In this document: in pieces, positions 5,982 to 18,916 of the stretch
How the letters are laid out: each line of letters begins with the position of its first letter
How positions within the stretch are numbered: the first letter of the stretch is position 1
From: a virus
DNA: 20,671 nucleotides
Direction: 5' to 3' (one strand)
IMG/VR virus record: IMGVR_UViG_3300034198_006809
Location: 1-20,671 of that record
The notes under the pieces: model-generated
Told to the model about the DNA's origin: nothing
Database searches by the model: none
Seen by the model: only the letters and a program-made list of their open reading frames with translations
Translations under genes and position numbers: made by a program

Positions 5982-6977
5982 ATGGCTGATCCACAAATTT
6001 CGCAGATAACGCAGTCGCAAACCACAATCCCCGACTATGCAAAACCGTACGTTGAGAATTTATTAGGGCAAGCGCAAGCCTATACTGACCCTTCTCAAAA
6101 CCCCTATCAGCAGTATATGGGGGAGCGTCAGGCGCAGTTCTCGCCTTTGCAGCAAATGTCTTACGACAATGCGGCGTTGATGCAGTCTCAACCCCAGTTG
6201 CAAGATGCCTCGGCTTTAGCGGGCATGGCTGGTCTGGGGGCACTCAATACACAATATACCTTCCGCCCCGCTAACTTCTCCTCTGCTGATGCTCAGAGTT
6301 TGATGAACCCCTACATGCAGAATGTGGTGGAACGTCAGCAACAGGATGCAACACGCCAAGCCGCTATCGCTGCCCAAGCTCAAGGTGCGCAAGCTGCACG
6401 CGCAGGCGCGTTTGGTGGAAGCGGTGACTATCTCATGCGTGCACAAGCCGCAGGTAATCTGGCACGTCAAAAAGGCGACATCCAAGCTACAGGGTTGAAC
6501 AATGCGTATGGCCAAGCTCTACAGCAATACAACACCCAGAACCAACTGAACGCTCAGCAACAACAGTTTGGCGCGGGTCTGGGATTGCAAGGTTTACAAA
6601 CAGCCAACACTGCCGCGCAGAATTTGGCCAACATTGGTCAGACGCAGTACGGTCAGAACATGGGCATCAATCAGTTGCAGAACCAGTACGGCTTGCAGCA
6701 ACAGCAGCAACAGCAAAACATTCTGAACAATCAGTATCAGGATTTCCTGAACTACCAGAACTCACCATATAAGCAGATGGGCTTCATGTCCGACATCTTG
6801 CGTGGCTTGCCTTTGACTCAGCAGTCTTCGACCATGTACCAGACTCCCCCTTCATTGGGTTCGCAGTTGGTTGGTGCAGGTACGTTGGCGGCAGGTGTTG
6901 CACTCAAAGCTAAAGGTGGTTCGATTAAAGAGAAGCCCGCTGGTCTGGCTGATCTGGCTTTATCCAAAATGGCGTAA
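5982..6977 (+). CDS. Gln-rich internal virion protein, small member of a putative ejection cassette
   Basis: 331 residues, strongly Gln/Ala/Asn rich. It starts IPDYAKPYVENLLGQAQAY. A central helical region at about residues 105-190 carries MNPYMQNVVERQQQDATRQA, AQAARAGAFGGSGDYL and GDIQATGLNNAYGQALQQYN. I recognise this block from virion-associated proteins of aquatic podovirus-like phages. A run of seven Gln lies at residues 239-245. The C-terminus has an Ala/Gly hydrophobic stretch (GAGTLAAGVALKAKGGS) followed by a basic tail. AAGGA overlapping the previous stop gives a Shine-Dalgarno 7 bases before the ATG. By order and size it resembles the small ejection protein of T7 or P22 (gp14, gp7); this is an analogy, not visible homology. 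Confidence 0.6.
   Translation: MADPQISQITQSQTTIPDYAKPYVENLLGQAQAYTDPSQNPYQQYMGERQAQFSPLQQMSYDNAALMQSQPQLQDASALAGMAGLGALNTQYTFRPANFSSADAQSLMNPYMQNVVERQQQDATRQAAIAAQAQGAQAARAGAFGGSGDYLMRAQAAGNLARQKGDIQATGLNNAYGQALQQYNTQNQLNAQQQQFGAGLGLQGLQTANTAAQNLANIGQTQYGQNMGINQLQNQYGLQQQQQQQNILNNQYQDFLNYQNSPYKQMGFMSDILRGLPLTQQSSTMYQTPPSLGSQLVGAGTLAAGVALKAKGGSIKEKPAGLADLALSKMA
6696..6716 (+). repeat. CAG/CAA tract encoding seven glutamines
   Basis: Seven consecutive CAG or CAA codons occur in the Gln-rich ejection-like gene. The mixed codons make it a less slippery tract than a pure triplet repeat. Confidence 0.9.
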
Positions 6978-8631: not shown

Positions 8632-11600
8632 ATGGCATATTCGATTCGCCTCCCAGACGGAACCCTTGTACAGAACATACCTGACGAAGTAACCCCGGAG
8701 GCGGCGAAAGCTAAGATTCTTCAAGCCCGTCCTGACCTTGCCCCCAAAGAGCGTTCACTGACTGAGGCTGCAACCGATATAGGCGCTAGTGCCATATCGG
8801 GGCTTGGCAGTTTGGTGCAGCTACCCGGCCAACTGTATGGGTTGGCCACCGGTAATATGGAAAAGACCGGTACATTGGGGCTTGGGGAAAACATTCAGAA
8901 GTACGGCGAAGAAATGAAATCCGCGGGTTTAAAAGCCCGTGAAGCCGCCCGCGCACGTAATGTGCAAGAAGCCGAAAAGCGTGGCCAAGGCGCTGCGTTT
9001 GTAACATCTTTTGCCGAAACCCTCAAAGACCCTGCCCTGCTTACATCGTTCCTTGCTGAGCAGGTGCCACAGCTTCTAGTACCCGGAGCCGGTGCTGGTA
9101 TTGCAGGGCGTGCAGCCCTCAAGCGTGGTATTGCCGCGGGGGTTGAAGAAGCTGCCGCTAAAGAAGCCGCTGTTCAAGCAGGCACACGTGCCGCTATTGG
9201 TGTAGGTGCAGTGCAACAAGGCGCTGATGTTGGTTCACAAGCTTATGAAGATATTTACAAGAAGCTTATCAAGGATGGTAAGCCTGCGCCTGAAGCTGCG
9301 GGTATTGCTCTCAACCTAGCCCGTGCCGCTGGTGTATCAGGTGCAGTCATATCTTTGTTGGCGCAACGCCTCCCCGGTGCAAAAGCTTTGGAAGAAGCTC
9401 TGGCTGGTAAGAAGGGTGTGGCCGGTGTATTGGCTGGCGCTGGTAAAGGCGCGCTGGGTGAAGCCTTAAGCGAATCCGTAGAAGAAGGTGGTGGTAAGTT
9501 CACACAGAACTTGGCCATGCGTGAAGTTGATCCTACTCAAGCATTGATGCAAGGCGTTGGCGCAACCGCTGGTCAGGCGGCTGTTGGTGGTGTTGGTATG
9601 GGCGGCGGTGCGGGTGCTATCAGTGGCCTGCGTGGAGGCGAAGCTCCTACGGTACAACAAATACCCGGGCAGCCAACTTTTACAGAAGCCCAAGCACAGG
9701 CCGCACGTGAAGCACGCGCCCGTGAACAAATGGGTGTCAAGCAAGGCCGTGAAGCCCGTGAGGGTGAAAAGTTAATTGATGCAGAAGCTAAAGCGCAAGC
9801 CGCCCAAGAGCAGGCTGTCCGCGTACAGGCTGAGCAACAAGCCGCCCAAGAACTACAAGCATTACGTAACCAACGCCAAGCTGAACTGGAGCAAGCGTTC
9901 CCCAAAGATTACAGCGATGTAATGCAGAGAACCAACTCGTATGCAGAGTTGTATCAAGAAAAGCAAGCTCTGCTGGGGCAGACAAAAACTAAAGAAGTAA
10001 AAGCACGTCTTAAAACCCTTGATGGTTTGATGGAAAGCATCGTTGAAGAAGACAACCGTGTGCCTAACGAGTTTGCACGGATGCAAAAGGAAAACGCCAA
10101 GGTCATCAAGAAGTTACCCAAAGAATTGCAAGCCAAGTATGCGGCTACTGCGTTCACTGTGCCAGAGCCACAGCAGATGGAGATGCGTGCGTTTATTGAC
10201 CAACCACCACCCATACAACAAACTAATTTATTGGGTCAGCCAATTGAGCAAGAAGCGCCTGCACCAGCCGAGCCTGAGTTTAAAACTGTAAAAACACGAG
10301 AAGAAGCGCAAGCTGCCTTGGATGCGCAGAACAGACGCAAAGCACGCGCTGGGCAAGCCGAACGCAACGCCGCCAAAGATGCAGGCCAACTTGGTTTGTT
10401 TACGCGGGTTGGTACACCAACCGAACAAGCCGCCGTGGTGGAAGAAAAGCCACCAGTTACCGAACCTGTGGTGAGGCAGAAGCCCACTCCCGAAACAGTT
10501 GCGCCTGTCATCACAAGCGAAACGCTTGGCGTGTTGGGTATTGGCCCCACTGCTGTGATGCGCAAGCCCGGTCATGCTATCCAAGGTCTGGACATTACCA
10601 AACCAGAAGATGCGGCTGAAGTCAGGAACATGCTGAACATCTATAAGGAAGGTCGCAGCGAAAAGATTACCCAGAAAATTGACGCGTTCCTTGCACGCCC
10701 TGAGTTCCAAGGCTTGCCAGCTCCTGCACCCAAACCAACACCCGCACCAAAGGTTGAAGCTGCACCTACGCCAGCGCCTACCGTTGCAGAAGCACCTGCA
10801 CCCACACCTATAGTGGAAGCTCCTATTGCTGAAGCGCCTGCTGTTGCGCCACCTGCTACTACACCAGAAATTAAACAACCTGCTGAGAAGCGGGCGGCTA
10901 ACAAAGCGGCACAGCCATCCGCAAAGAAGGTTAAGAAAGAAGAGGCCAAAAATGAAGTTGTACAACCAACTGCTGAGCCTACTCCTGCGCCTACCCCTGC
11001 CAAAGCAGTGGAAGCACCGCCTGCTCCTACGCCTCCTAAAGTTGTAAAGAAGACTCCAAAGAAAGTTGAGGCCAAGAAAGAAGAACCCAAGGTTGAACCT
11101 AAAAAGGAAGAGCCAAAGGTTGAGCCTAAGAAAGAAGAGCCAAAGGTTGACAAGGCGCTTGAGAAGGCGCGTGAGACTGCCGATGATCTTGACCTCGATC
11201 CTGATACAACCAAAACTAAAGTCAAATCATTTGCTAAGCGTTTGCACAAGGCAGGCTTGATCGATGACATCAGTTTGAACGCGGTTGAAAGCATATCCAA
11301 AGACAAGGATATGGGTACTCAAGACTTGTTAGATGAAATTAAGTTTGCGCTTGAAGCCTACGAAGGTAAACAAAAAGAAGCACCCGCTAAGCCTGAACCC
11401 AAGGTGGAGGCCAAGCCCGAACCAAAAGTTCCGGAGCCACAAAAGGCACAGATTGAAAAGCCGTTCAAACGTTTAACAGAAGATCAGAAGCAGGAACTCG
11501 AAGAGTTCTATGGTGAGAAGCGTGACGCCGATGCCTTCTGGGACAAGCTACGTGCTGACGTTATAACGTCAATCAACAAAGGCTCAAAGGCCGTTGCACA

Positions 11601-14600
11601 AGCGATCCGTGAGATCGTCAATCAGATTGCCGCCGGTGTACTTGCAGTTGGCTTGGTGTTTAACCCCACGGCACTGAACAATCAGTACAACATCAATCTG
11701 CCAAAGACGTTCAAAGAAACGATCTCGGTAACTGCGCCTGTACCAGAAGCCGCTAAAGGCAAGATGTCGCCCCTTGCACAGAGCGTGTATGAGGCTATGG
11801 CACCCGTTGCCATGAAGACCGGCAAGTGGTTTATGGTTGCCGACAAGCCCAACGGCATGCTGCATATCTTCAAAGAAGATGGTTCACATTTCATATCTGA
11901 CGCTACCTTGTACGGCAAAGATAAGGGCGATGTACTAGCTAACGTATCTTCGCTTGAGGGCGGTGCAAAGATCACCCCCGCTGGTAAGTTCACACTGAAA
12001 CAATCTGAAGCTGAATACGCTGGTAAAGTTGCATTGCTTTTGGTTGAATCCCAAGACTCAACAGGCTACATCGCTGTCCATGCAGCAGATGTCAGCACGC
12101 CATCTGAGCGCAGGCTCGAGCGTTTGGAAACCCCAACTTCTGCCGATAACCGCATTAGCTACGGCTGTATTAACACCAAGCACGAAACGTTCATCAACGA
12201 AATTAAACCTCATATCAATGAGCTTGACGGTGGCCTGATCTTTGTGTTGCCTGACGCAACTGAAAAGACTGCTGAAATGTTCGCGCCTGAGACAAAGGTT
12301 GTTGAACGTACAGAAGCCCCTGCCCCCACTGCCAAGACAGAAGGCGCGCGGGAAATTGCAAAAAAAGAAGAAACGCTTGCGGAAACCCAACGCCTGCAGA
12401 AACCTGCGGCTGACCTATCTTATGTGGATCGCCCTGTATCTGTTGAGGCTGACTTGCAAGCTAAGCTGCAAGAAGGCGATGTCAAAGGCGCATTGCAGGC
12501 TATCCTTAAAGCGCCCAAAGGTGTGTACAACGATCTTGACCGCGCAGTAGCACGTCGCATCTTGTTGTCTAACAAACTGCCAACCATCGAGATGGTAGCT
12601 GAAGGCGCCTTGGGTCGAGAAGGTAATAACATTGTTGCCGGTCAATACGATGCGCAAACCGATAAGATTCAGTTGGTCAATGGTTATGCTGGCGCCCACG
12701 TACTATTGCACGAGCTTGTACACGGATTCTTACACCGCGCCATTGCCCTACAGGGCGCAGGCAAACTCAACAACGTTGGTATCCGTAACCTGCAAGAGTT
12801 GTATGAATACGTAGCTAAGGCCAATCCAAAACTGATTGACGAATACGGCATGACTAACCTCAGTGAATTTGCGTCTGAGGCAATGTCCAATAAAGCCTTC
12901 CAAGCTGCGCTGATGGCTATCCCATACCGTCGCAACAGCAACGTGTTCACCGCGTTTGCAAACGCTGTATTGAAGGCACTTGGACTGGCAGCAGATGCTC
13001 AACACACTGCGCTTGCATCAGCCATGCTGACTATTGACAGCATCATGACGGAAGGCCGTAAGATTCAAGAATCTTTGACAGGCACAGAAGTTGAAGGTTC
13101 ACTGCCCGGTATCGCCCCCGTTATGGTAAAAGAGTTGGATGATGCAACTCGCCAATCTATCAAAGATATTCAAGCGCAGTTCCCAGTAGGAGATCAATTA
13201 GGGGTTGGTGGTGTTGTTACACAAGCATTGAAGGGCGTGCAGTCAGCCAGAGAAAACTCTGGAATCATGAACACATTCCGTCAAGCAGTGGCTGACAAGT
13301 ACGCTACGGTTGAAGCCAAAGTATCTACCATGTTCTCTCAGGGCGTGCGAGATTATTTTGGCAACATTAATCCTATGCTGTTGGCACGTCAGGCAGAAGA
13401 TAGCGCCAAGGTTGTGATGGACTTCTTCCGTGCAGGTGGCGTGCGTTTGACTAAAGATGGTTTGGTGGAATCTTACAAGCAGGGTAAGTCCATGGTGACT
13501 GCGCTTCAAAAGGTTTCTGAATATGCTCGTGCAAACAACCTGTCTTACGAAGATGCAAAGAGCGAAGTGTCGACCGTATTGGAAGGCCATCGTTTGCACA
13601 ATATTAACGAAGAGCACAACAAGCCCTTGGAAGCATCTGCTCTGATCCTTGAACAGCAAGGTAAGAACAAAGAAGCTGATGCTGAGCGCAAGAATAAGAT
13701 TACTCTGCACATGGATCTGAAGCAGATCGCTACGCTGGAAAAGGCATACCAACAATCCGCTGGTATCAGGGAAATCCAAGACGATCTGAACGCAACTCGT
13801 ACGCAGGCTGTCGACTTGATGATTGCTACAGGTCGCTTGACTAAAGAGCAAGGTCAGTTTTGGAAAGACAACACTGCATACGTACCGTTCAGCCGCGTGT
13901 TTGAAGAAGCCGTACCTAACATGGTGTACCGTGGCAAGGGCTTGGGCGTGCTGAAAAAATTCCCGGGCATGGAAGGCTCGTTGGGCCGCCCTGTTAAAAA
14001 CGTACTCGACAGCTATGCCAACCGTCTGAGTTGGATGGTAGAAGATTCCATGAAAAACCATGCAGCCGTCAAGCTGCTTGAAACGATGGAGTTGGGTGGC
14101 TTCGCACAAGAAGTGCCGACCAAAGATAAGGCCAAGAACCCCAATCTGGTCGTGAGCCTGTACCGTGACGGAAAGCCCGTGTTGTTTGAAGTGCAGAACG
14201 AATACGATCTGCTTGCCTTCCAGCAAGCACCTGAGATGATGAATGGCCTGACCAAAGCGTTGGGTGCTACATCTCGCTGGTTGCGTCTATCGATTACTGC
14301 AATGCCGCCCTTTGCAATCAAGCAGGTGATTGAAGACGCGCAACGTGCCGCTTTCTATTCTGGTGTGGAGCGCCCATTAGTTGTAGCCATGAAGACTTTA
14401 TACAACATGCCCCGTGTGTTCTTTGGGGAAGTTACAGGTCGCAAGTCGCCTATGGTCAAACGCATGGAAGAACTTGGTATTGTGGGTGACTATGACTTCA
14501 ACGTGTATCAGCCTGTAGGTGACATTGAAAAAGAGATTGGCGCAACCAAACGCAACGTAGGGCAGAAGTTGTTTCATCGTCTTGAGCAATTTACCAAAGC

Positions 14601-15789
14601 CTCTGACTTGGCGGCACGTCTGGCTGTTTACGAAGAAACCATGCGGGATACCAAAGGCGACGAAGTGCTTGCCCAAACCCGTGCACGTGAATTAATTAAC
14701 TTTAGCCGCCGCGGTTCAAGCTCTGCAATGCGCACTGCCGCACGTGTGATTCCATTCTTTAATGCCTACGCACAAGGCATGGATGTGCTGTACCGATCAG
14801 CCACAGGTTTGGATTCTTCGTCTGCCTTAAACCGTGCCGCTGCCCGTAAATTATTCTTAAGCCGTGTGGCCATGATGACTGCGTTGGGTTTTGCATACGC
14901 ACTTGCCATGAGTGACGATGATGGCTACAAGAACGCAACAGATGATGTACGTGACAACAACTGGATTCTTCCTAATGGTTATAAAATTGGTGTACCAAAA
15001 GAACTTGGCTTCTTGTTCAAGTCAATCCCAGAACGTGTGGTTGAGTACTACAACCGCTATGGCACACCAGAAGAGCAACGCTTAACGGAAGCGCTGGGCA
15101 GTGTGGTCAAAGGTGCAATGTCTGCGTATGGTTCGCCCAACGTGACACCATCGTTCATCAAGCCAATCCTTGAGAACATGACCAACTATTCGTTCTTCTT
15201 GCAACGTGAGTTGGAATCTGCATCGCTCAAGCGTTTAGAACCCGGCCAACGGTTTACTTCTAGCACTTCCGAACTTGCTAAAGCGTTGGGTGAACAAACT
15301 AATATATCGCCTATTAAGATTGATAACTTCTTGCGTGGTATGTTTGGTATGGCTGGTTCAACCACACTGCTGGCAACTGACGCTGTGCTGAACCCAACAC
15401 GCCCTGATCGCCCCTTGTATCAGATGCCATTCGGTAGCTTGTTCTTGTACGACACCATTGGTGGCCGCGCTAAAAACGAGTTCTATGACCTGCAAGAACG
15501 CGTCAGCCAAGCCGATGCTACATACAAAAACTTGCTTGAGAAAGACCCTGAAAAAGCACAAACGTATCTTGAGAAAAATGAAGCGTTGATTAGTATTGCA
15601 CCGACTATCAACAACACATTGCAGCAACTGAGCACACTGCGCAGACTGCGTACCATGTACGAGCAAGGCACTGAAGAAATGCTTGGCATGTCTAGCGCGG
15701 AGCGACGTAAATCAATTGACGAAATTCGTGAAGCTGAGAACGAAACGTTATCGTTTGTGCGGGAACTCAATAAATCTTTGGAAGATTAA
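8632..15789 (+). CDS. Giant multidomain virion protein: YkuD L,D-transpeptidase + HExxH metallopeptidase + LPD38-like region
   Basis: 2385 residues, probably an ejected polyvalent protein. In order: RLPDGTLVQNIPDEVTPEAA motif at the N-terminus; Ala/Gly-rich hydrophobic helices about 110-345; coiled coil about 349-450; Pro/Ala/Lys linker about 697-840 with KKEEPKVEP repeats; a short hydrophobic segment near 999-1010; a YkuD-type L,D-transpeptidase domain about 1060-1208 with TPAGKF (1115-1120), His1150 and SYGC (Cys1179); a zincin-like domain about 1265-1450 with HELVH (His1360, Glu1361, His1364) and SEFASEAMSN (Glu1412 or Glu1416 as possible third ligand); and a long C-terminal region resembling large polyvalent protein domain LPD38, including SRWLRLSITAMPPFAIKQ near 1880 and a membrane-like helix about 2073-2092. 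The ATG follows the previous stop closely with only a weak Shine-Dalgarno. The domain calls rest on motifs; the virion location is inferred from position. Confidence 0.8.
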   Translation: MAYSIRLPDGTLVQNIPDEVTPEAAKAKILQARPDLAPKERSLTEAATDIGASAISGLGSLVQLPGQLYGLATGNMEKTGTLGLGENIQKYGEEMKSAGLKAREAARARNVQEAEKRGQGAAFVTSFAETLKDPALLTSFLAEQVPQLLVPGAGAGIAGRAALKRGIAAGVEEAAAKEAAVQAGTRAAIGVGAVQQGADVGSQAYEDIYKKLIKDGKPAPEAAGIALNLARAAGVSGAVISLLAQRLPGAKALEEALAGKKGVAGVLAGAGKGALGEALSESVEEGGGKFTQNLAMREVDPTQALMQGVGATAGQAAVGGVGMGGGAGAISGLRGGEAPTVQQIPGQPTFTEAQAQAAREARAREQMGVKQGREAREGEKLIDAEAKAQAAQEQAVRVQAEQQAAQELQALRNQRQAELEQAFPKDYSDVMQRTNSYAELYQEKQALLGQTKTKEVKARLKTLDGLMESIVEEDNRVPNEFARMQKENAKVIKKLPKELQAKYAATAFTVPEPQQMEMRAFIDQPPPIQQTNLLGQPIEQEAPAPAEPEFKTVKTREEAQAALDAQNRRKARAGQAERNAAKDAGQLGLFTRVGTPTEQAAVVEEKPPVTEPVVRQKPTPETVAPVITSETLGVLGIGPTAVMRKPGHAIQGLDITKPEDAAEVRNMLNIYKEGRSEKITQKIDAFLARPEFQGLPAPAPKPTPAPKVEAAPTPAPTVAEAPAPTPIVEAPIAEAPAVAPPATTPEIKQPAEKRAANKAAQPSAKKVKKEEAKNEVVQPTAEPTPAPTPAKAVEAPPAPTPPKVVKKTPKKVEAKKEEPKVEPKKEEPKVEPKKEEPKVDKALEKARETADDLDLDPDTTKTKVKSFAKRLHKAGLIDDISLNAVESISKDKDMGTQDLLDEIKFALEAYEGKQKEAPAKPEPKVEAKPEPKVPEPQKAQIEKPFKRLTEDQKQELEEFYGEKRDADAFWDKLRADVITSINKGSKAVAQAIREIVNQIAAGVLAVGLVFNPTALNNQYNINLPKTFKETISVTAPVPEAAKGKMSPLAQSVYEAMAPVAMKTGKWFMVADKPNGMLHIFKEDGSHFISDATLYGKDKGDVLANVSSLEGGAKITPAGKFTLKQSEAEYAGKVALLLVESQDSTGYIAVHAADVSTPSERRLERLETPTSADNRISYGCINTKHETFINEIKPHINELDGGLIFVLPDATEKTAEMFAPETKVVERTEAPAPTAKTEGAREIAKKEETLAETQRLQKPAADLSYVDRPVSVEADLQAKLQEGDVKGALQAILKAPKGVYNDLDRAVARRILLSNKLPTIEMVAEGALGREGNNIVAGQYDAQTDKIQLVNGYAGAHVLLHELVHGFLHRAIALQGAGKLNNVGIRNLQELYEYVAKANPKLIDEYGMTNLSEFASEAMSNKAFQAALMAIPYRRNSNVFTAFANAVLKALGLAADAQHTALASAMLTIDSIMTEGRKIQESLTGTEVEGSLPGIAPVMVKELDDATRQSIKDIQAQFPVGDQLGVGGVVTQALKGVQSARENSGIMNTFRQAVADKYATVEAKVSTMFSQGVRDYFGNINPMLLARQAEDSAKVVMDFFRAGGVRLTKDGLVESYKQGKSMVTALQKVSEYARANNLSYEDAKSEVSTVLEGHRLHNINEEHNKPLEASALILEQQGKNKEADAERKNKITLHMDLKQIATLEKAYQQSAGIREIQDDLNATRTQAVDLMIATGRLTKEQGQFWKDNTAYVPFSRVFEEAVPNMVYRGKGLGVLKKFPGMEGSLGRPVKNVLDSYANRLSWMVEDSMKNHAAVKLLETMELGGFAQEVPTKDKAKNPNLVVSLYRDGKPVLFEVQNEYDLLAFQQAPEMMNGLTKALGATSRWLRLSITAMPPFAIKQVIEDAQRAAFYSGVERPLVVAMKTLYNMPRVFFGEVTGRKSPMVKRMEELGIVGDYDFNVYQPVGDIEKEIGATKRNVGQKLFHRLEQFTKASDLAARLAVYEETMRDTKGDEVLAQTRARELINFSRRGSSSAMRTAARVIPFFNAYAQGMDVLYRSATGLDSSSALNRAAARKLFLSRVAMMTALGFAYALAMSDDDGYKNATDDVRDNNWILPNGYKIGVPKELGFLFKSIPERVVEYYNRYGTPEEQRLTEALGSVVKGAMSAYGSPNVTPSFIKPILENMTNYSFFLQRELESASLKRLEPGQRFTSSTSELAKALGEQTNISPIKIDNFLRGMFGMAGSTTLLATDAVLNPTRPDRPLYQMPFGSLFLYDTIGGRAKNEFYDLQERVSQADATYKNLLEKDPEKAQTYLEKNEALISIAPTINNTLQQLSTLRRLRTMYEQGTEEMLGMSSAERRKSIDEIREAENETLSFVRELNKSLED
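11074..11151 (+). repeat. 27-bp tandem repeat (about 2.9 copies) encoding KKEEPKVEP
   Basis: Units lie at 11074-11100, 11101-11127 and 11128-11151 and differ only at a few, mostly synonymous, positions. They lie at the end of the Pro/Ala/Lys linker of the giant protein, and shorter PEPKVE echoes follow at 11392-11440. This is a charged, probably extended spacer. Confidence 0.9.
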
Positions 15790-15864: not shown

Positions 15865-16086
15865 TTACTTAATTCGCCAAACCCGTATACCCCACATGCC
15901 ATTTTCTATGCGGGGAATTACCTTGACCCTAAAGCCTCGGTTCTCGGCACGCTGGATGATGCTACGCTCCATACGCCCGTGGTTGATACAGGGCAGGAAG
16001 AAAGAGGAGCCAAGCCTGAACTTGCGCCACTCAATCTGTACCTGTATGCCCTCAATCTCAAGCGGCTTTTCTATCTTCTGCGTCAT
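15865..16086 (-). CDS. Small conserved phage protein of unknown function (GSSFFLPC...GIRVWR type)
   Basis: 73 residues, basic. The central FRLGSSFFLPCINHGRMERS and terminal GMWGIRVWRIK match a small protein family I recall from many phages (a core like GdSFFvPc, then helix A..G and GvRVWR) whose role is unknown. I chose the ATG at 16086 because the family core follows it at the usual distance; an upstream in-frame ATG at 16119 would add 11 residues deeper inside the primase gene. It overlaps the 3' end of the primase gene by 29 bp in another frame, with no clear Shine-Dalgarno, so it is probably translated by coupling. It is the last gene before the leftward terminator. Confidence 0.65.
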   Translation of the reverse strand: MTQKIEKPLEIEGIQVQIEWRKFRLGSSFFLPCINHGRMERSIIQRAENRGFRVKVIPRIENGMWGIRVWRIK

Positions 16087-18916
16087 CGTTTGGTAGTGCC
16101 AACACCGCTTCCGCATCAAACACGTGGCTCATGGTGTCGTCAATTAACAACGCATTAACTGGGGGTGCTGCCATCAGCGTACCTTTTGCCATACGCTTCT
16201 TTACAGAATCCACACTAACGCCTGTATTACGCAGGGCGTTCACGGTGTCGTGATAGCTGACCTGATTCTTGGCGCACCATTCTTTGAACTTCTTTTGCAC
16301 AATGAACAGACGCTTGGTATCAAGCTCATACCGGATTAGCAACTCGCCCCGCGGTTCTCGTACCGGTGCTGCAGGTAATCCATTCTCGCTAGGGTTATCC
16401 CTAACCAACAAAATGTTGTTAATGTTGGCCATGACAAACGAACCGATTGCTGTAGCGCCATCTGTTGGGGCAGCTTTAATGTCGCCCTTGTTAGCCTTGA
16501 GCATTACCACAAGCCAGTTGAAGATGCGCTTGACGTCAAAGTCAATCAAACCCAGTTGGTTGGCAATCAAGCCGCCCGTGATACCCAGTGCACCGATAGA
16601 CGACCAGAAGCGTTCACGCTGACCCAAACCTGCCGCTGTATCCAAACGCAACTGCACATCGCGCAGAGTATCCAGAACTTCAGGTAGGTTGTTGACCACA
16701 TACTTCATGAAGATTTCACCGGCATGGCCATAGTTGGTTGCCAGCTTGCCAAACAACGCATCGGTAAATTCTTTTGAGAATGTCTCGTCACGGCGAATCT
16801 TCAACTCAATGATACGCATCATCTCGCCTTCAGGAAATTCCTTTAGGGAAAACAACTTATCGTACAAGCTGCTATTGGATGATGTGATTGCAAGCAAGCG
16901 CCAGAACGTATTATTCAAACGCTCAGCGTTGGTCTGTGACTCCATGCGGTTCTTGCCGCGGCCTTGGGTGATAGCGTATGACAACTGCGACACCATTTCA
17001 TCACGCATGTTGGTGACTTCATCGATCGTTGCAGGTATGTTGTTCAGAACCCCGAAGCGGTGAATCTTGGCGTTGTACGTATCATCGTTCTGAAGTAGTA
17101 GGTCGAACGGTTGCCCCCAGATACTATTGATAGCCATCTGCACGGTTGACTTACCTGTGCCAGAGCCGGGACTCATCAGGTTCACAATGCCACCGCGCAC
17201 TTGAGTAAACGGCATCAGCACCCCACCAAACCCAAGCATGAACGCGAAGGCTTGAGCTTCCATACCGTTGTTGTTATAGAAGTTAACCACAGACTTCCAT
17301 TCGTCTAGTTCGCCCTTCTTTGACAGCAGCGCACAGGTATGCAAGATTGAACTTGCAGGGGGGCTATACCTTACGCCTGTTGTTGTGATCTCACGATCGC
17401 CAAGGATGAAAGTCTTCTCATCCGTCCAACCAAATTGGCTTCTTACTTTTTCAGCTTGTCCCATAACTTGCAATTCCTTTACCCAACGGGAAACATAAAA
17501 CATTAACTCATCTACAGTCTTACCCAGTACCGCCATGCCCTGCGTTGCGATGGCATCACGAAAGCGATCTTTTGACAACACACTGACCAACGGCACTGAG
17601 AACTCACGCACACCATCTTTAGGTAGGTGCAGGCGCATCCATAGAACTTCACCAGCCACAGGGTCATGCATACGCTTGACCACGTAGAAATCATTTTCGT
17701 AAATCAACTTATCGTTGCCTTCTTCTTCGGTTTTGTTAGGGTCGCCACGGCGGTAGATGCCACCGTACTTGCCACGAAAAAAGGGGAACGGAAAAGCTGG
17801 AATGTTATAGACCCGCACATCTTTTGTGCCAGAGTCAACAGTTGTGATTGTGTTGTCTTCTTCGGTTGCTTCAATGATCTCTTTACCCAACACGATGGGC
17901 GAACCAAACTTACCTTTATGCTTGCAGTCTTTGCAACCCCCGGGTCGTAAGTCTTCAAACGTTGCACAGGTATACGGGCCTTTGGTTTCGCCAGCCTTCT
18001 TGTCTGTCTCGTAAGAGTTGTAGCTTTCATGTTGGCTCGACATCTCATGAATGGCAGTCTCACGATCTATGCAAAGATGTGCAATGGAAAGCCCCGCACG
18101 CCACAAAGGTTCTGCTACTTGCTTCTGGTGCTCAACGATGTGGTTCAGTTGGCCACACCCCTCAACCTTCAGGGCAATAATCTTTTCAAAGCGATACGAA
18201 TTGTTCTGCCCCATGAGGGCTTTGCTGGTCGCGTCAGACCCAGCGTTCTTGATGTAGTCGGGCACTTCAAAGGGCAACGCGTCAGTAGACTGGCTTGGCT
18301 CGGGCGCACCCAGTGCGGCTGCGAAATCAAACAGGTCAACCTTGCCGTCACCACTCATGTACTCCACGGGAAGTGGGGCATCAGGATTTTTGAAGTTGTG
18401 TGTAGTTGGCACGCGCAGGATACGCGCCATGTCAGTTGTGCAAGCGGGATCAGCAAATAAGCCGCGTTCAGTGCAAACATTCTTCAAACGCTTGGCCACA
18501 GGTAGCCATGTGTTCTTGTCAATACTCTCAGGCAGTACCCAGTACGCATGCACTCCGTTACCAGAGTTGATGCAGATGGGTTGAGGTAGGTTCAGGTCAG
18601 CGCAAAACTGTCCCAGTGCCGCCATTGCCAGATCACGTGATGCGTAATCTTTTGTGGGGCCACAGTCCAGATCAAGCCAAAATGCTTTGGCCTTGTATGC
18701 GTTGGCGGCTAGCCTACGGGGTGGCGTAATCTCTGGGTCAAACGAAAACATCGCATAGTACGTGTCTGCGTTGGCGTCATAGATATCTTGGATTTCCGTG
18801 ATGAGAGATGGAATGTCCGATGCAAAACGTGTACGTAACTTTTCCTGCTTAATACCGACCGCGCAGTACTTGCCAGCGTCGGGCAGAACTGCATTTAAAA
18901 ATTCGGTCAATGTCAT
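16058..18916 (-). CDS. Primase-polymerase (AEP-like) / superfamily 3-like helicase fusion
   Basis: 952 residues; a replication initiator that probably primes and unwinds phage DNA. The N-terminal about 200 residues resemble archaeo-eukaryotic primases: acidic pair Asp82/Asp84 in FWLDLDCG, then SGNGVHAYW (118-126) and the Arg-rich ARILRVPTTHN (164-173). A middle cysteine set (Cys254, Cys317, Cys328, Cys331 in CKDC) suggests a zinc knuckle. The C-terminal ATPase has Walker A GSGTGKST (584-591), Walker B-like PATIDEV (Asp632, Glu633), and LLAITSSN with a sensor-type Asn681. The upstream stop is 14 bp away, and no Shine-Dalgarno is apparent before the ATG (ATTACCTCT precedes it). It follows the SSB-like and helix-turn-helix genes in one leftward operon. 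A DUF927-type helicase is the likeliest ATPase family, but I cannot verify this. Confidence 0.88.
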   Translation of the reverse strand: MTLTEFLNAVLPDAGKYCAVGIKQEKLRTRFASDIPSLITEIQDIYDANADTYYAMFSFDPEITPPRRLAANAYKAKAFWLDLDCGPTKDYASRDLAMAALGQFCADLNLPQPICINSGNGVHAYWVLPESIDKNTWLPVAKRLKNVCTERGLFADPACTTDMARILRVPTTHNFKNPDAPLPVEYMSGDGKVDLFDFAAALGAPEPSQSTDALPFEVPDYIKNAGSDATSKALMGQNNSYRFEKIIALKVEGCGQLNHIVEHQKQVAEPLWRAGLSIAHLCIDRETAIHEMSSQHESYNSYETDKKAGETKGPYTCATFEDLRPGGCKDCKHKGKFGSPIVLGKEIIEATEEDNTITTVDSGTKDVRVYNIPAFPFPFFRGKYGGIYRRGDPNKTEEEGNDKLIYENDFYVVKRMHDPVAGEVLWMRLHLPKDGVREFSVPLVSVLSKDRFRDAIATQGMAVLGKTVDELMFYVSRWVKELQVMGQAEKVRSQFGWTDEKTFILGDREITTTGVRYSPPASSILHTCALLSKKGELDEWKSVVNFYNNNGMEAQAFAFMLGFGGVLMPFTQVRGGIVNLMSPGSGTGKSTVQMAINSIWGQPFDLLLQNDDTYNAKIHRFGVLNNIPATIDEVTNMRDEMVSQLSYAITQGRGKNRMESQTNAERLNNTFWRLLAITSSNSSLYDKLFSLKEFPEGEMMRIIELKIRRDETFSKEFTDALFGKLATNYGHAGEIFMKYVVNNLPEVLDTLRDVQLRLDTAAGLGQRERFWSSIGALGITGGLIANQLGLIDFDVKRIFNWLVVMLKANKGDIKAAPTDGATAIGSFVMANINNILLVRDNPSENGLPAAPVREPRGELLIRYELDTKRLFIVQKKFKEWCAKNQVSYHDTVNALRNTGVSVDSVKKRMAKGTLMAAPPVNALLIDDTMSHVFDAEAVLALPNDDAEDRKAA

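Follow-up and report, generated by a model that had tools for sequence, protein, structure and literature searches.

Enzymes of the L,D-transpeptidase fold are known to trim, to cross-link, and to anchor proteins, and a 2025 review gives the motif of these enzymes as (S/T)XGC (PMC12729407). YkuD domains have already been listed among phage lytic proteins (PMC8310338). The survey that defined the polyvalent proteins of phages and conjugative elements names lysozyme, SpoIID-like, and DD-peptidase wall enzymes, with the words "transpeptidase" and "YkuD" absent from its text (PMC5512222). Here we describe a predicted domain of the L,D-transpeptidase fold inside a 2385-residue protein encoded by a 20,671-nucleotide viral sequence (IMG/VR record IMGVR_UViG_3300034198_006809, positions 1 to 20,671; "the window" below).

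The domain shares its fold and the order TPxG, upstream His, and S/T-x-G-C with the YkuD-fold L,D-transpeptidases and L,D-carboxypeptidases (Bacillus subtilis YkuD, LdtMt1, LdtMt2, Escherichia coli LdtA to LdtE, Csd6, and Pgp2). Unlike these canonical enzymes, it has a His-to-Ser spacing of 25 rather than 12 to 18 residues, HA in place of HG, GCIN in place of GC-hydrophobic-R, and a giant-protein setting. Our preferred reading, to which we assign a probability of roughly 60%, is that it is a divergent enzyme of this fold, kin to secreted bacterial proteins and carried as an optional cassette with a signal-like segment in a giant polyvalent or ejection-type protein, that would remodel the wall at entry. 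The features that define the domain are as follows.

11758..12288, + strand: L,D-transpeptidase (YkuD-like) fold domain, residues 1043-1219 (AlphaFold2 model; PDB fold matches)
11974..11991, + strand: TPAGKF, residues 1115-1120, kept in alignments A1 and A2
12079..12081, + strand: His1150, putative catalytic base, invariant in 32 relatives and aligned with the His of secreted bacterial homologues
12157..12168, + strand: Ser1176-Tyr1177-Gly1178-Cys1179, putative nucleophile motif; Gly and Cys invariant, first position S/T, second Y/W/F

Predicted fold and active-site motif

An earlier note on this DNA, made from its letters alone, had identified a YkuD-type L,D-transpeptidase domain and proposed structure prediction as a check. 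The AlphaFold2 model of residues 1043 to 1219 is confident (mean predicted local distance difference test score, 89.8; predicted template modeling score, 0.87), and the top 29 Foldseek matches in the PDB are all of the L,D-transpeptidase/carboxypeptidase fold, 16 of them with E values of ≤0.001. Pgp2 and Csd6 lead (E = 2e-5), followed by LdtMt2, YkuD, DpaA, and YcbB, with LdtMt1 and LdtMt3 also among the 29. A second aligner, VIA, gave a Z value of 13.5 over 111 residues at 2.2 Å to a Mycobacterium smegmatis enzyme, with LdtMt1, Csd6, and YkuD similar. The fold comparison is clear, the identification stands, and adoption of the L,D-transpeptidase fold by the modeled residues is well supported.

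The TPxGxF, upstream His, and SxGC signature pointed out in the note was located in order. It occurs once across the six frames of the window (as TPxG, upstream His, (S/T)xGC), did not arise when the residues of the 2385-residue protein were shuffled 20,000 times, and is conserved in 32 aligned relatives drawn from IMG/VR (alignment A2, made up of 31 phage sequences and the bacterial-type fragment L062). Down to 26% identity, all of these keep the His, R-[IV]-[ST]-x-G-C-x-N, and T-[PE]-A-G. The invariant positions are the first-strand D/K, the T-A-G of TPAG, His1150, the Arg, Gly-Cys, and the Asn. Chance resemblance by residues that do not form such a domain would fit the lack of a direct Pfam match, but not the shuffles, the exclusively L,D-transpeptidase character of the best fold matches, or the homologous secreted family described below. 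Because of the fold comparison this explanation is refuted in practice, and we give it negligible weight.

The note had also taken the absence of a YkuD profile hit to count against the domain. Absence was found for the window protein alone; relatives with the same domain do score, L054 above the gathering cutoff of PF03734 (YkuD; 23.8 versus 23.4 bits) and L060 (20.5 bits) and the standalone L024 (22.4 bits) below but near it. Among cellular homologues, 7 of 20 matched the YkuD profile at E ≤ 0.1. At the sequence level the window domain matched only PHROG 38499 (E = 8e-5), a family 117 residues long whose function is unknown. When the PDB was searched by sequence with the domain and with its profile, only chance matches came up (NHL repeats, BRCC36), and these were discarded, as was an hhalign comparison with five E. 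coli L,D-transpeptidases that aligned the His wrongly. In deposited phage genomes, the search for close relatives of the domain returned just short, distant ones, in phages of Stenotrophomonas, Xanthomonas, and Erwinia. Those of Stenotrophomonas and Xanthomonas phages (L023:4001-4288 and L024:3926-4267) are L,D-transpeptidase-like proteins of about 80 to 115 residues, annotated as hypothetical, and each lies downstream of a gene for a long Gly/Ser/Asn-rich secreted-type protein.

A secreted bacterial family with SYGC and a 25-residue spacing

Two features had been singled out as oddities: SYGC in place of SHGC, and the gap of 25 residues between His1150 and Ser1176. Both are present, and both had been misread, since they characterize a subfamily to which secreted bacterial proteins also belong. 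Scanning genomes with the phage profile gave no loci; a scan with a more bacterial-like subset found 374 candidate loci, in Sphingomonas, Polaromonas, Janthinobacterium, Caulobacter, Lysobacter, Halopseudomonas, and other taxa, from which 80 were fetched and 20 bacterial proteins were inspected. The His lies exactly 25 residues ahead of the motif in 19 of these 20 proteins and in all 32 rows of alignment A2, and most canonical L,D-transpeptidases of the same bacteria have a His-to-S/T spacing of 12 to 18. The residue before Gly-Cys also varies in E. coli (SQGC in LdtA, SSGC in LdtC and LdtE). Tyr1177 was therefore rejected as a sign of lost function, the residue being variable in E. coli enzymes and SYGC being shared by the bacterial family.

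The secreted homologues, found in Sphingomonas, Polaromonas, Janthinobacterium, Lysobacter, and others, resemble the window domain over its whole length and share the 25-residue spacing and SYGC(I)N, but they are small (about 210 to 300 residues) and have N-terminal signal-like segments. A comparison of the phage and bacterial profiles spans the whole domain with His and Cys aligned (E = 3.7e-55), and in a quick tree a branch with 99% support in the Shimodaira-Hasegawa-like approximate likelihood ratio test separates the bacterial domains from those carried by giant phage proteins. Comparison with a broader set of canonical enzymes from the same bacteria gave 91%, over the N-terminal half only. 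The small secreted family (L104 to L183; for example, L104:9989-10534) is widespread in Sphingomonas, Burkholderiales, and other bacteria. Sampled members have absent or marginal Pfam YkuD matches, and a search of the bacterial-type fragment L062 found no NCBIfam match. From their sequences, the secreted SYGC proteins look like an unnamed L,D-transpeptidase subfamily.

The canonical signature was not found in the window domain: the spacing is 25 (canonical, 14 to 17; 10 to 18 in other accounts and in the present sample), with HA and GCIN, and the subfamily as a whole reads HA/HR plus GCIN. Because of these differences, the domain is filed as a divergent relative of the fold and not as a canonical L,D-transpeptidase. 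As judged from the aligned sequences, a divergent subfamily with secreted bacterial members is recognizable by its SYGC and 25-residue spacing, and neither trait indicates that the enzyme is inactive or peculiar to phages.

The same substitutions could be read another way, with the fold kept only as a binder of peptidoglycan or stem peptides that tethers the ejected protein to the wall and turns nothing over. Virion proteins commonly hold binding-only derivatives of enzymes, and the classical HG and GC-R signature is indeed changed to HA/HR and GCIN. Yet the His, the Cys, the S/T before x-Gly-Cys, the TP.G region, the Arg, and the Asn are invariant or nearly so across 26 to 100% identity, and these residues, which form an active-site pattern, are common to the secreted bacterial family. 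We consider binding without catalysis quite improbable.

A hydrophobic segment ahead of the domain

11605..11670, + strand: signal-peptide-like hydrophobic segment, residues 992-1013 (IREIVNQIAAGVLAVGLVFNPT), among the protein's most hydrophobic stretches

A basic lead-in followed by a short hydrophobic core, IREIVNQIAAGVLAVGLVFNP in the window protein, is present in 31 of 31 giant proteins that bear the domain. Across these 31 relatives the segment lies 174 to 190 residues before the Cys and usually ranks within the top few percent of its own protein for hydrophobicity (median, 1.8%). In the secreted bacterial homologues, the hydrophobic segment at the N terminus precedes the Cys by a similar distance (median, 180 residues). 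Among relatives with the C-terminal domain LPD38, a search pattern shaped on the domain-bearing members found the segment in 18 of 18 proteins with the L,D-transpeptidase domain versus 0 of 8 full-length proteins without it. The simplest account is the uptake of an entire secreted enzyme together with its export segment, and this co-traveling export-like segment is the least expected part of the arrangement.

Membrane-active helices are frequent in ejection proteins, and hydropathy by itself does not separate such a helix from an export signal. The segment, borderline in hydropathy, might thus be an amphipathic helix of an ejection channel, unrelated to export, with its positional match to bacterial signal peptides a coincidence. 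That would leave unexplained why the segment is gained or lost together with the domain in otherwise similar proteins and why its distance to the Cys matches that of the bacterial family, and we regard the channel helix as somewhat unlikely.

Upstream of the segment, a repetitive Pro/Ala/Lys-rich linker with KKEEPKVEP repeats (about 10760 to 11560, residues about 710 to 975) precedes the module and differs in length among relatives.

An optional cassette in differently built proteins

Relatives with the same LPD38 C terminus were fetched independently of the L,D-transpeptidase domain, and comprised 18 with the domain and 8 full-length proteins without it, several of the records being near copies. 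One of them, L079, aligns to the window protein on either side of the module (residues 1 to 693 and 1271 to 2385), with a short linker replacing the module itself. The domain is an optional cassette in the giant protein, hydrophobic segment included.

It also occurs in proteins of different construction, with inorganic pyrophosphatase, LPD1, SNF2 helicase, methylase, and RadC-like domains. In L060:3354-16493, for example, a polyvalent protein of 4,379 residues or more combines the L,D-transpeptidase fold with pyrophosphatase, LPD1, methylase, and SNF2 helicase domains. A standalone gene for the fold with a signal-like N terminus is found on a viral contig (L059:1272-1811), adjoining an apparent T4-type single-stranded DNA-binding protein gene.

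The giant protein and its neighborhood

8632..15789, + strand: giant multidomain polyvalent/ejection-type protein, 2385 residues (open frame; LPD38 match; gene order)
8896..10158, + strand: N-terminal region, residues 89-509, resembling the N4 virion RNA polymerase profile phrog_2206 (E = 2e-17 to 7e-19; to be read with caution, the region being Ala/Glu-rich in composition)
12433..13071, + strand: zincin-like metallopeptidase region with HELVH at residues 1360-1364 (HExxH; virion RNA polymerase profile match of the L079 relative; weak fold matches)
14917..15432, + strand: LPD38, large polyvalent protein-associated domain, residues 2096-2267 (PF18857, E = 4.5e-29, 102 bits versus a cutoff of 27)
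5982..6974, + strand: neighboring DNA ejection protein family phrog_4287 (E = 1e-11; phage DSL-LC04 has the family in the equivalent place)

Polyvalent proteins are large chains of unrelated domains that include LPD domains; the window protein combines LPD38 with the L,D-transpeptidase fold, and its relatives carry further domains. With the polyvalent proteins known from phages and conjugative elements (PMC5512222) it shares LPD38, many unrelated domains per chain, and perhaps the zincin region, for which it has an HExxH motif. Profile matches to the N4 virion RNA polymerase (gp50) cover its N-terminal region and, in L079, the zincin-like region, at profile positions 2079 to 2243. This is near the position that Iyer and colleagues gave for the metallopeptidase of the N4-type RNA polymerase, amino acids 2130 to 2448 (PMC5512222). 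Fold matches of the zincin-like region, N4 gp50 and several zincins among them, were below significance. Unlike N4 gp50, the 2385-residue protein had no detected RNA polymerase.

The giant gene sits among head and ejection genes, downstream of genes with PHROG matches to an endolysin-type protein, a stabilization-type protein, and the DNA ejection family. Phage DSL-LC04 has a matching gene order, with the gene in the giant-gene position annotated "DNA transfer protein." On the opposite strand beyond the giant gene lies a DUF927 or primase-helicase-type protein (phrog_25314, 16058-18916). Orthology to the P22 ejection proteins gp7, gp20, and gp16 was not supported, since the P22 proteins belong to other PHROGs, and an N-terminal DarB-like match (phrog_10089, E = 0.003) was considered too weak and not used.

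Because of LPD38, the N4-like N terminus, the zincin-like region, and the gene order shared with DSL-LC04, the 2385-residue protein is likely an ejected virion protein, delivered into the host. The description of the chain as a giant virion protein in the earlier note thus draws support from gene context and from similarity to the N4 virion RNA polymerase profile, which point to a virion-type protein.

Expression in the infected cell offers a different role. The zincin region would cleave the giant protein late, and the released L,D-transpeptidase part would be exported to alter the wall, either ahead of lysis or as a defense against superinfecting phages. The signal-like segment ahead of the domain, the zincin-like region behind it, and the standalone secreted version beside a single-stranded DNA-binding-type gene all fit such a course. 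Against it, the gene is grouped with head and ejection genes, and the remainder of the protein resembles virion-injected proteins; we judge late action improbable.

Two phage proteins from a library of predicted viral structures, with names assigned automatically, are large and share the fold: UniProt entry A0A6J5S7V6, which is 44% identical, comes from an uncultured Caudovirales phage, and takes its name from a large polyvalent protein domain, and UniProt entry A0A8S5MBC9 of Podoviridae sp. ct53O25, named "L,D-TPase catalytic domain-containing protein." A literature search found no study of either, nor any paper on L,D-transpeptidase domains in ejection or polyvalent proteins; a review of phi29-like phages reports Ig-like domains only. 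L,D-transpeptidase annotations thus preexist for other phage proteins, and the arrangement inside a giant protein with an export-like segment was not found in the literature.

A proposed role at genome entry

Most likely, to judge from the domain and its context, peptide stems are the target of the L,D-transpeptidase-fold domain, which would work in the periplasm while the genome enters. The giant protein would leave the virion along with the DNA, and the hydrophobic segment would enter or cross the inner membrane, placing the enzyme on the periplasmic side. Peptidoglycan is located outside the inner membrane, so the enzyme must face the periplasm. Given the fold and motif, Cys1179, activated by His1150, would then attack the L-D bond of peptidoglycan stem peptides, followed either by hydrolysis (L,D-carboxypeptidase-like trimming) or by transfer to another stem or to a protein, and the wall would be locally remodeled around the entry site.

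Several points weigh against this reading. The domain of the window protein had no match to PF03734 or to other Pfam or NCBIfam models, and HA and GCIN stand at the classical HG and GC-hydrophobic-R positions. The tailoring of the segment search pattern to domain-bearing proteins belongs here too, as does the hydropathy of the segment (Kyte-Doolittle, about 1.6 to 1.9), which is modest for a membrane helix.

Z values differing by 1 or less were treated as ties, and with such ties the reaction type is not readable from the fold ranking; trimming, cross-linking, and protein anchoring are indistinguishable for this domain from the present evidence. A bolder proposal, which we put forward as speculative and doubtful, is that phages took a whole secreted L,D-transpeptidase and its export segment into an injected protein, so that the delivered chain threads the enzyme through to the periplasm and either closes the wall at the entry hole or bonds covalently to it there. 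The domain would then be a virion-borne wall cross-linker and not a cutter.

Implications

An L,D-transpeptidase fold in a probably injected protein, together with a membrane- or export-like stretch, means that the virus may bring its own wall-remodeling tool into the infected cell. The virion wall enzymes described to date are, for the most part, cutters of glycan strands or of peptides. If a domain could remake peptide links, this would suggest wall repair or reinforcement by some phages where they inject, and how cells survive DNA injection would become a directly testable question. An internal export-like segment that is gained and lost with the domain provides a concrete hypothesis for how parts of a giant ejected protein arrive in the periplasm, and the SYGC proteins that bacteria secrete, a widespread family without a name, are now tied to the L,D-transpeptidase fold.
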